From the NCBI GenBank assembly GCA_016182845.1, contig JACPFT010000010.1:62001-126000 (forward strand): a stretch of DNA of 64,000 nucleotides. Reading direction: 5' to 3'. Below the pieces are notes generated by a model. It worked only from the letters and a program-made list of their open reading frames with translations. It was not told the origin of the DNA and did not search any database. Shown here piece by piece: positions 4,243 to 13,740 of this stretch. Both the position numbers and the translations under genes were made by a program. The stretch is from Gammaproteobacteria bacterium (GTDB lineage: Bacteria > Pseudomonadota > Gammaproteobacteria > Enterobacterales > Permianibacteraceae). Every line of letters begins with the position of its first letter. Position 1 is the stretch's first letter.

Positions 4243-4298
4243 GTAGGTCCGACTTCAGTCGGACGTTCGCGACGATGTCCCGCTGAAGCGGGACCTAC
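4243..4298. repeat. Paired REP element, GTAG-headed, copy 1
   Basis: Unit GTAG plus the palindrome GTCCGACTTCAGTCGGAC (4243-4264), then 12 bases and an inverted unit (4277-4298) ending in CTAC. The two units face each other as in BIME-type REP doublets. The same element recurs at 5956-6007 and 10591-10658. It lies in the convergent gap between glpE and the FliL-like gene. Confidence 0.8.
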
Positions 4299-5955: not shown

Positions 5956-6007
5956 GTAGGTCCCGCTTCAGCGGGACATGAAAGCGTCCGGCTAAAGCCG
6001 GACCTAC
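5956..6007. repeat. Paired REP element, GTAG-headed, copy 2
   Basis: GTAG plus GTCCCGCTTCAGCGGGAC (5956-5977), eight bases, then an inverted unit GTCCGGCTAAAGCCGGAC plus CTAC (5986-6007). Same facing arrangement as the copy at 4243-4298. It lies between queF and a small gene. Confidence 0.82.
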
Positions 6008-10590: not shown

Positions 10591-10658
10591 GTCCGGCTGA
10601 AGCCGGACCTACAAGGCAAGCCCTCGCGGCCTCCCCGTAGGTCCGGCTTCAGCCGGAC
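10591..10658. repeat. Paired REP element, GTAG-headed, copy 3 (opposite arrangement)
   Basis: GTCCGGCTGAAGCCGGAC plus CTAC (10591-10612), a 24-base spacer, then GTAG plus GTCCGGCTTCAGCCGGAC (10637-10658). Here the GTAG heads point toward each other across the spacer, the reverse of copies 1 and 2. It sits in the convergent gap between acuI-like and the nucleotidyltransferase gene. Confidence 0.82.
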
Positions 10659-10663
10659 AAGCC

Positions 10664-11731
10664 CTAGCCCGCCAAAAACGCCTTGCGCAGCAGATGCGGA
10701 ATCAGCAAGTGCACCGGCATGCGCAACCAGTGCCCGCGCACATAGAGCCCGAAGCGCGCCAGGCCATCGAAGCTCCGGCGCGCCAGGGGATGGGGCGGCC
10801 GCATGCCCCGGCCTATGGCGAAATCCATGAGCATCAGCTTGGCCGCGCCGGGCCGCGCCGCCGCCAGGGCCGGCCACAGCGCGTCCGGCAGCGGCGTGTC
10901 CCAGGCCTGGTGCGCATAGCGCAGGGCGTAGAACAGCGGCCGGGCCAGCTCCAGCTCGTAGGCCCGCGCCGCCAGGTCCGCGAAGAAACCCTCCTCGGCG
11001 CCGAAATGGCGCAGCAGCCGGTCGAGATCGTAGAGATCGCGCAGGCCCTTGTCCCATTCGCCCTCGTGGAACAAATGGCAGGCGCTATGGATCACCATGT
11101 CCCGTGGCGCCAGTATCTGAACTCCGCTCAAGCCCGGAACCGGCACCGCCTCGGCTCGCAGCTTGGCCGGATCCGGGTGGTAGCGGGCCGTGGGCGGCAG
11201 GATGCTGTGATGCACATCGAGCACGCTCTGGCGCTTCTGGTGCATCAGGGGCGGTAGCTCGTGCATCCACTCCCGGTAATAACGCTGGTCGTAGGCATCG
11301 TGGTAAGTGCCCAGCCAACCCTGCCAGTACAGGGCCTGCTCCACCTCCGCCAGGCGCGCCTCGGGCACCAGGATATCCACGTCGGCGAACAGCCGGCCCT
11401 TGGCCGGCGGCAGGCCCGCCACGGCATAGGCCGCGCCCTTGAGCAGCAGCACCGGGATCCCCAGGGGCGACAAGGCACGCACCAGCCGGCTCGTCTCCCA
11501 GCTCACGCCCCGGGCATTGGCTTCGGCCAGGACCCGGGCCGATTCCAGTTGGGCGCGCACCGGCTCCGGCAGAGCCTCCAACACGCCCGCCTCGCGCAAG
11601 CTAGCCTCCAGGCTGGCCACCAGGAGACTGCCCTGGGCCAGGCGCAGCACGCCGTCCCATCGACCCAGTGGATAATCGGCCGCCCGCTCGGGCTGCAGCA
11701 GGGCCAGGCGCAGATCCTGCCAGGCCCTCAT
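10664..11731 (-). CDS. Nucleotidyltransferase-family protein of the HPr-rel-A gene set
   Basis: 355 residues. A nucleotidyltransferase-fold core is visible: IPVLLLKGAAYAVAGL, then the metal-binding pattern GRLFADVDILVPEARL (D-x-D) at about residues 112-127, followed by a helical C-terminal region with CHLFHEGEWDKGLRDLYDLDRLL. This is the type often placed with HprK-like kinases and PqqD-like proteins in exosortase loci and in some lasso-peptide-like clusters. The start ATG overlaps the stop of the kinase gene by four bases, so it is the last of three coupled genes. Its nucleotide and target are unknown. Confidence 0.78.
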   Translation of the reverse strand: MRAWQDLRLALLQPERAADYPLGRWDGVLRLAQGSLLVASLEASLREAGVLEALPEPVRAQLESARVLAEANARGVSWETSRLVRALSPLGIPVLLLKGAAYAVAGLPPAKGRLFADVDILVPEARLAEVEQALYWQGWLGTYHDAYDQRYYREWMHELPPLMHQKRQSVLDVHHSILPPTARYHPDPAKLRAEAVPVPGLSGVQILAPRDMVIHSACHLFHEGEWDKGLRDLYDLDRLLRHFGAEEGFFADLAARAYELELARPLFYALRYAHQAWDTPLPDALWPALAAARPGAAKLMLMDFAIGRGMRPPHPLARRSFDGLARFGLYVRGHWLRMPVHLLIPHLLRKAFLAG

Positions 11732-12660
11732 GCCGCCGCCTCGGCCAGGCACTCGCCCGCCGCAAGGCGCTCGAACAGGCTCAGGGCCTCGTCCGTGTCG
11801 CTGTACTCGAAACGCCAGGCCGAGACTCGATCCAGTAGGCCGCAGAGGGTCTCGTAGCCGCGCCGGCCATGCAGGCTGTAATTGAAGGCTTGTTCCGCCA
11901 GTTCCAGGCCCACCGGCGCCGGCGGCAGGGCCTCGAGCCGGGTCACCGCGCCGGCCCGGTACTTGGGAAACACCACCCAGCCCGGCGGCGGGCACTCGCC
12001 CTGGCGCGCCACGCTGTCCGCCGGCGGCCGGCCGTGGGCCACCGTGCCCTTGAGCGTGTCGTGCACCACCTTGGTGAAGGGCACTTCCGGGGCCAGGGCC
12101 TGGATCACGCCGATGGAGGCATTCTTCAGGCTGACCGGTCGCGGCAGGGGCTGGATCAGGCAGTCCCAGGGACGGATCAGGGTCAGCTCGTCGGACAGCA
12201 GGCGCCAACCGCCGCGATAGCACAGGGCCGCGCAGAGCGTGCTCTTACCCGAACCGCTGATCCCCGGCAGCAAGAGCGCCCGGCCGTTCTTCTCCAAGAC
12301 GGCGGCGTGCAGGATGAGATAGCGGTTGGCATGCTGGCTGACGCACCAGTTCATGCCCCATTCCAGGAGGGCATGGGCCTGAACGCGCGGCAGGGGCAGG
12401 AAGGGCGGATGTTGATCGAAATAGAACTGCACCTGGGGCGAAACCCAGCGCCGCAGCCAGTTCGGCGCGGCGACGCGCACATGAAAGTCGGCATAACCCG
12501 GCTCGGCCAAGGGATAGTCCGCGTAAGCCAGGCGCAGACCGGCCCGAACCCGGGGCAGACACGAGCGGATGCGGAAGATGAAGGGGCCGGAACTCAGGAA
12601 TAGACCCTCGCCTTCCAGGCGAGTCGCCAGCTCCCCCTCGCTTAGCGAGCCCAAGTTCAT
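11728..12660 (-). CDS. HprK-related kinase (HPr-rel-A system)
   Basis: 310 residues with a P-loop GISGSGKS at residues 133-140 and the HprK-like LLSDELTLI segment shortly after, as in the C-terminal domain of HPr kinase/phosphorylase and in the serine kinases of lasso-peptide clusters. The N-terminal 110 residues are a separate domain of unknown role. Start at 12660 overlaps the PqqD-like gene by four bases (ATGA). The partner genes on both sides define the HPr-rel-A set known from PEP-CTERM/exosortase bacteria; phosphorylation of a peptide or protein is inferred, not shown. Confidence 0.85.
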   Translation of the reverse strand: MNLGSLSEGELATRLEGEGLFLSSGPFIFRIRSCLPRVRAGLRLAYADYPLAEPGYADFHVRVAAPNWLRRWVSPQVQFYFDQHPPFLPLPRVQAHALLEWGMNWCVSQHANRYLILHAAVLEKNGRALLLPGISGSGKSTLCAALCYRGGWRLLSDELTLIRPWDCLIQPLPRPVSLKNASIGVIQALAPEVPFTKVVHDTLKGTVAHGRPPADSVARQGECPPPGWVVFPKYRAGAVTRLEALPPAPVGLELAEQAFNYSLHGRRGYETLCGLLDRVSAWRFEYSDTDEALSLFERLAAGECLAEAAA

Positions 12661-12998
12661 GCCTCGGCCTCGCCGATCCGGTAATCCAAGAGGCCGAGGC
12701 CATAGAGATCGGAAAGCAGGGCATGCAGCTCGGTTTGGCCGAATTCCTCGGGCGGCAGCTCCAGGTGCTGGGCGACCCGCCGGCACAGCTCCGCCACCCT
12801 CAGCCCCGGGGCCTTCAGGCTGCTCAGGACGAAAAAGCGAAAGGCGTCGACCGCGTGGGTATCCCCAGACCCGGTATGAAACACCAGGAATAGATCATCG
12901 GTTTCCATGCCGGCTTGGGCGGCAGCCTCCGGCCAATGCCGGCCCAGAATTTCGCAACCGGGAGTGACGAACCAGACTTCATTGGGAGAAAAGGACAA
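12657..12998 (-). CDS. PqqD-family protein, HPr-rel-A system
   Basis: 113-residue small protein with the winged-helix pattern of PqqD-like RiPP recognition elements: a strand-rich N-terminus, FRFFVLSSL, then AELCRRVAQHLELPPEEF and a C-terminal helix LHALLSDLYGLGLLD. PqqD proteins hold a substrate peptide for a modifying enzyme. The start is TTG at 12996-12998; AAGGAG lies seven bases before it, and no ATG fits. It is the first of three genes joined by two four-base overlaps (PqqD-like, kinase, nucleotidyltransferase). Confidence 0.8.
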   Translation of the reverse strand: MSFSPNEVWFVTPGCEILGRHWPEAAAQAGMETDDLFLVFHTGSGDTHAVDAFRFFVLSSLKAPGLRVAELCRRVAQHLELPPEEFGQTELHALLSDLYGLGLLDYRIGEAEA

Positions 12999-13104
12999 GC
13001 ACCACTCCTTGGCCGCAGGGAAAACGCCGTCAACCGGCCCGTTCCAGCAAGGCTACGAGGCGGGCCGGGCTTTTGCAACCGCCCGGCGGCGCCCCCACAA
13101 AGCA

Positions 13105-13126
13105 AGACCCCCGCGCTGGCGGGGGT
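13105..13126 (-). terminator. Hairpin between the Tat-exported protein gene and the HPr-rel-A genes
   Basis: GACCCCCGC-GCTG-GCGGGGGTC, a perfect 9-bp GC stem followed on the minus strand by TTGCTTTG. The T-tract is interrupted, so partial read-through into the three downstream genes is plausible. Confidence 0.6.
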
Positions 13127-13152
13127 CGGGGGATTTGGCGGGAAACGAGAAC

Positions 13153-13740
13153 TCAGTGATAGGTGTTCTCGAAAAAGGCCTTGGCATCCTGCTCGTACAT
13201 CTGCTGCCCGGTCGAGGTCGTGTAATAGCCGATCGTGTTGATGGCATTCCAGATGGCGATGACTTCCGCGCCCTTGAGCGCGTAATCGGGGAAATTACTC
13301 GCCGAATTCAGCAAGCAGGCGATGGTATGGAAGGCGAAGCTGCCCGGCTTGTTCTGCAAGACCCACATCATGGTCTTGCCGTTGTAGTTGTACTTGCCCT
13401 TGTTGAAGACGTCGTGGAACTTCGTGCCCGTGGTTACCCCCGACAGGTAGGGCGTGGGCCAGTTGGTATGGGTCTTCCAATAGCCCGGGCTCAAGCCACC
13501 GCAGCCCTGGTTGCTCACGGGCTGGGATACATTGCCCGACATGAAGCCGGAGGCCGTGCAATAACGGCGCGTCGTGGCCATGACCGGGCGGCTGGCCAGA
13601 CTCATGACAATGGGAGAGGCGATCAGGGCGCCCTTCAAAAAACTGCGGCGCGCAGCCAGACGCAGGGCTTCCGCGTCAGAACACTGGGCCGGCGGGGAGG
13701 TGTCGTCGGGGGTGATATGCGGCTGCTGATTCTCGTCCAT
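13153..13740 (-). CDS. Tat-exported protein with an SPGYWKTH motif, unknown function
   Basis: 195 residues. A twin-arginine signal is evident: ARRSFLKG (RR at 31-32) then a hydrophobic stretch ending near PVMA (residue 55). The mature part opens with a cysteine pair (C61, C80) flanking a short loop and then GLSPGYWKTH (82-91) followed by NWPTPYLSG. No catalytic family was recognised. GAGGG five bases before the ATG supports the start. It is the first gene, on the same strand, ahead of the HPr-rel-A genes with a GC hairpin between, so it is a candidate substrate or partner of that kinase/PqqD set. This link is an inference from position. Confidence 0.7.
   Translation of the reverse strand: MDENQQPHITPDDTSPPAQCSDAEALRLAARRSFLKGALIASPIVMSLASRPVMATTRRYCTASGFMSGNVSQPVSNQGCGGLSPGYWKTHTNWPTPYLSGVTTGTKFHDVFNKGKYNYNGKTMMWVLQNKPGSFAFHTIACLLNSASNFPDYALKGAEVIAIWNAINTIGYYTTSTGQQMYEQDAKAFFENTYH

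Follow-up and report, generated by a model that had tools for sequence, protein, structure and literature searches.

The window, the 64,000-nucleotide stretch of DNA analysed here, carries on its minus strand (positions 13740-10664) four genes that encode, in order, a protein with a Tat-type signal, an RRE/PqqD-like protein, an HprK-like kinase and an NTP_transf_5 protein. The arrangement is best explained, with a probability of about 0.7, as a four-gene HPr-rel-A protein-modification cassette that would act on the Tat-exported protein. The sequence-only reading had proposed that the last three genes form a modification module with the Tat-type protein as its candidate substrate, and this core idea is strongly supported by gene linkage and by the RRE fold of the PqqD-like protein. 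HPr-rel-A is a known but unexplained system, and a literature search returned no paper mentioning it or its models. We can now name, with good confidence, a candidate substrate for this annotated enzyme set, which occurs in diverse Pseudomonadota and in one Malonomonas genome.

The four genes and their coordinates match the earlier description, and the PqqD/kinase and kinase/nucleotidyltransferase junctions are each a 4-base overlap (ATGA). The PqqD-like protein (12657-12998, minus strand) scores 43.4 bits against TIGR04353 (cut-off 35), the kinase (11728-12660, minus strand) 345 bits against TIGR04352, HprK-related kinase A (cut-off 200), and the adjacent nucleotidyltransferase (10664-11731, minus strand) 197 bits against PF14907 (cut-off 31). 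By these curated NCBIfam and Pfam cut-offs, the trio is assigned to the HPr-rel-A system, with the same three enzymes in the same order; the family models of that system describe enzymes only, and none covers an exported substrate. The kinase is only a distant relation of HPr kinase, scoring 14 bits against the HPr kinase/phosphorylase model TIGR00679 (cut-off 240). Active-site residues are at least 99% conserved in both enzymes: H118, the P-loop residues G136, G138, K139, S140 and T141, and D157/E158 in the kinase (129 sequences), and K98-G99 and D117-x-D119 in the nucleotidyltransferase (111 sequences). TTG is a credible start for the PqqD-like gene, since it lies behind AGGAG and the N-terminal beta-hairpin that it encodes is well modelled. 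Structure prediction gives a model (pLDDT 89) with a lasso-peptide-type RRE fold, its best PDB match being TbiB1 with bound leader (E 7.7e-4), followed by PqqD.

The exported protein (13153-13740, minus strand) is a 195-residue precursor composed of a Tat-type signal, a flexible SGxxSGN segment and a helical SPGYWK...LLN domain. It contains RRSFLKG, a short h-region, VMA at the likely cleavage site, and C61 and C80, the two cysteines previously noted ahead of SPGYWKTH. The twin arginines, R31-R32, are followed by SFLKG; R32 is invariant and R31 nearly so among 65 relatives, and the protein is presumably a Tat substrate. They lie in the leader region (residues 28-55, LAARRSFLKGALIASPIVMSLASRPVMA; 13576-13659, minus strand), which is proposed to be the RRE-binding leader as well. 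The C-x2-S-G-x2-S-G-N segment follows (residues 61-70; 13531-13560, minus strand) and is the proposed phosphoacceptor region; its Ser64 and Ser68 fall within a low-confidence, probably flexible segment of the model (residues 61-78). The SPGYWKTH motif (residues 84-91; 13468-13491, minus strand) lies where the confidently modelled helical domain (residues 81-195) begins and occurs once in the window's genome.

Conservation across the 65 family members places R32, S64 and S68 as invariant, and on this evidence the most conserved part of the family is not SPGYWKTH. The motif also fails as a defining feature, because alpha-type substrates lack it yet keep the leader. These form a second substrate type (loci L153-L183), with four conserved cysteines, a C-terminal CWxS, a similar leader and no SPGYWK. 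The exported protein has no family match in Pfam or NCBIfam, and its 64 relatives have none but one weak match. Its model has no PDB match by Foldseek or VIA-align, and a literature search on PGYWK proteins gave unrelated matches only. A single-protein query against genome contigs and plasmids was likewise empty, the sequence being too divergent for such a search.

Linkage of the exported-protein gene to HPr-rel-A loci carries most of the argument. In a relatives sample of 99 genomes, mostly of the same order, the kinase occurs in 15, and a small RR-signal protein is encoded upstream of it in all of them. Whole genomes and named contigs (Massilia, Thiobacillus, Noviherbaspirillum, Methylomonas, Malonomonas and others) supplied 135 kinase loci. 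In 126 of them the exported-protein gene stands directly upstream of the kinase, as found by searching the kinase's strand upstream with a model derived partly from the searched loci. Because of this overlap, the model was retrained on 15 same-order loci and the other 120 served as a hold-out; across their six frames it matched at the expected spot in 96 of 120. Elsewhere among the 22,220 six-frame segments it matched only at L100, L105 and L122, all adjoining the cassette, and nowhere away from one. Eight of the nine loci outside the 126 carry the gene downstream, inverted (L168) or on another contig, and at four (L169, L170, L181, L186) the genome's best leader match is a small ORF on a different contig. 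L073 is the sole locus of the 135 with no exported-protein candidate in the sequence examined. Two loci, L105 and L122, have two tandem substrate genes downstream of the nucleotidyltransferase gene and an unrelated gene in the upstream slot.

The reverse comparison gives a similar picture. The family profile matches 15 of the 99 genomes in the relatives sample, 14 of them with the kinase, and 22 of 398 genomes at phylum scale, 19 of them with the kinase. One match in a genome without the kinase (G217) looks spurious. Two kinase-less genomes, G017 (L041) and G361 (L237), encode larger secreted proteins that have only the C-terminal PGYWK/LLNA domain in common with the family. Genome-wide co-occurrence of the family with HPr-rel-A, a check set beforehand, is clearly positive (126/135; 14/15; 19/22). 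Since its gene almost always adjoins the trio, the exported protein is very likely the target of the enzymes, and by this linkage it appears to be the missing fourth member of the HPr-rel-A cassette.

The leader provides a second line of evidence. A leader-only profile of 31 positions, to which some of the scored genomes had supplied leaders (G370, G104, G129, G063 and G347 had not), gives the cassette gene 28-49 bits, higher than for ordinary signals, in 20 of 26 kinase genomes. Its scores do not exceed 23 bits anywhere else in the 34 genomes searched, of which eight lack the kinase. In the other six kinase genomes the cassette leader is weak (20 bits in G076, 14 bits in G421) or unlisted (G097, G393, G412, G114). 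The signal across types is weak: a profile built solely from beta/gamma leaders puts the cassette gene at rank one in 12 of the 33 alpha-type and similar genomes (E 1e-4 to 0.3) and misses several. Alpha and beta/gamma leaders have an identity of 0.32, against 0.19 when shuffled, whereas the mature parts have no detectable identity (0.24 against 0.25). Within the limits of that weak cross-type signal, the family thus has the RiPP-like combination of a conserved leader and a variable remainder. Leaders that are alike where the mature proteins are not suggest that the Tat signal doubles as an RRE leader. This pattern fits a leader under a constraint of its own, to which Tat export, through a basic residue in the c-region, and common descent could contribute in part. 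Co-variation between leader and PqqD-like protein exceeds the kinase background (partial r 0.23; none of 300 permutations reach r). Co-variation between leader and kinase is higher (0.35), and the former is therefore not used as proof.

In the mechanism that we propose, the PqqD-like RRE would bind the N-terminal leader of the exported protein, which would also be its Tat signal peptide. The kinase may then phosphorylate the held precursor in the cytoplasm, at Ser64 or Ser68 of the flexible SGxxSGN segment behind the leader, and the NTP_transf_5 enzyme would put a sugar or nucleotide on that phosphate. The folded, modified protein would exit via Tat and lose its leader. That phosphorylation and decoration precede export is suggested by analogy with LPP and lasso peptides, described below. 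The acceptor may not be the same in every type, as SGxxSGN is missing from alpha-type substrates. In a variant of this mechanism, the kinase would modify the exported protein not behind the leader but at a C-terminal site rich in Cys and Ser (CWxS in alpha types), as the invariance of C178-W179-x-S181 in 21 alpha-type members and the C-terminal Ser target of the paeninodin kinase might indicate. This variant is unlikely, given that beta/gamma types have no conserved C-terminal Ser and have the invariant S64 and S68.

Split cassettes bear on a different role for the PqqD-like protein. In four genomes (G162, G215, G345, G117) a TIGR04353 gene (41-51 bits; cut-off 35) comes after the exported-protein gene, and the kinase is on a different contig from this pair; in a fifth, G174, the exported-protein ORF is on another contig with no TIGR04353 gene behind it. 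By staying together when the cassette is split, the two genes form its tightest pair, as expected of a substrate and its recogniser. The same pairing would suit a PqqD-like protein that chaperones the Tat leader until folding, with the kinase and nucleotidyltransferase acting elsewhere, for example on a polysaccharide precursor; the cassette is also often near polysaccharide genes. We consider such a division of labour improbable, because the three genes are joined by 4-base overlaps in the window, peptides are the substrates of the same trio in lasso and LPP clusters, and an invariant Ser-rich segment stands behind the leader. Least likely is an exported protein that stays unmodified as a regulon and operon partner of the trio, whose true substrate would be another peptide: although the proposed modification is putative and the secreted proteins of G017 and G361 have related PGYWK domains where the trio is absent, the linkage persists where the exported-protein gene lies downstream, is inverted or has split off together with PqqD, and no other short ORF family recurs at the HPr-rel-A loci.

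The intergenic sequences of the window were also considered. A GC hairpin with a stem of 9 pairs is present between the exported-protein and PqqD genes (13106-13127, minus strand), and it had been read as a possible expression valve allowing partial read-through. The hairpin is not conserved, and as a conserved valve it is rejected: the region holds no more terminator-like sites than chance predicts (3 found, 3.2 expected), and the 154-nt gap in which it lies is atypical, the median gap being 15 nt across 117 loci. A paired palindromic repeat, GTAGGTCCGGCTTCAGCCGGAC, occurs at 10591-10658 and also at 4243-4298 and 5956-6007. Six copies lie in the window when as many as 2 mismatches are allowed, against none expected, and the genome has 33 exact forward or reverse matches; it is a REP-like intergenic repeat.

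Once mature, the protein would act beyond the inner membrane, probably together with the XrtA/PEP-CTERM exopolysaccharide machinery. Of the 135 loci, 79 have one or more genes of the XrtA/PEP-CTERM polysaccharide set within 9 kb, a count that drops to 59 when the glycosyltransferase family is not considered. In the relatives sample, every one of the 15 genomes with the kinase encodes an exosortase, as do 16 of the 84 others, counts that shared ancestry inflates. Universal dependence on exosortase is rejected, as only 30 of 61 kinase genomes encode one at phylum scale. In the window's genome, the exosortase is on another contig than the cassette. A literature search found no paper linking HprK with PEP-CTERM. 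Separately, at 29 loci a trypsin-like serine protease gene stands beside the cassette, in most cases some 2.4 kb upstream of the kinase (for example at positions 1637-2401 of L185). It is a possible processing enzyme and is not seen beside the window's cassette.

The closest relatives of the cassette are the linear polyphosphorylated peptides (LPP) of Bacillota and phosphorylated lasso peptides. LPP loci combine an RRE, an HprK-like kinase and an NTP transferase, have no cyclase and lie near polysaccharide loci; LppK phosphorylates Ser3 of the core, just behind the RRE-bound leader, and LppN was inactive in its heterologous host (PMC13381572). The HPr-rel-A cassette resembles them in its discrete RRE, HprK-like kinase and NTP transferase, in the polysaccharide loci nearby, in precursors with a conserved N-terminus and a variable C-terminus, and in the proposed phosphorylation of a Ser directly after the leader. 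In contrast, LPP systems have a SipW-like leader peptidase, an MsbA-like exporter and a YxxP leader motif, whereas the window protein combines a Tat-type signal with a helical domain some 115 residues long. The YxxP motif is absent from its leader, and, judged by eye, neither such a peptidase nor such an exporter is among the gene calls around the cassette. In lasso peptides, a phosphate and then a hexose are added (PMC9266682, PMC8498205), with PsmK and PsmN phosphorylating and glycosylating a Ser (PMC9266682). Phosphorylated or glycosylated lasso peptides such as paeninodin and pseudomycoidin share the RRE fold, kinase and nucleotidyltransferase with the window cassette. The latter differs in having no macrolactam cyclase or B2 protease, judged by eye among the gene calls of window 5-20 kb, and in its large protein substrate. 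Tentatively, and at somewhat less than even odds, the Tat signal may serve as an RRE leader for phospho- and glyco-modification of whole folded proteins, and the cassette would be a widespread proteobacterial counterpart of LPP serving the XrtA/PEP-CTERM extracellular matrix. If true, this would be an instance of RRE-guided modification acting on a Tat-exported protein, and would add a new component to the XrtA polysaccharide and matrix machinery.
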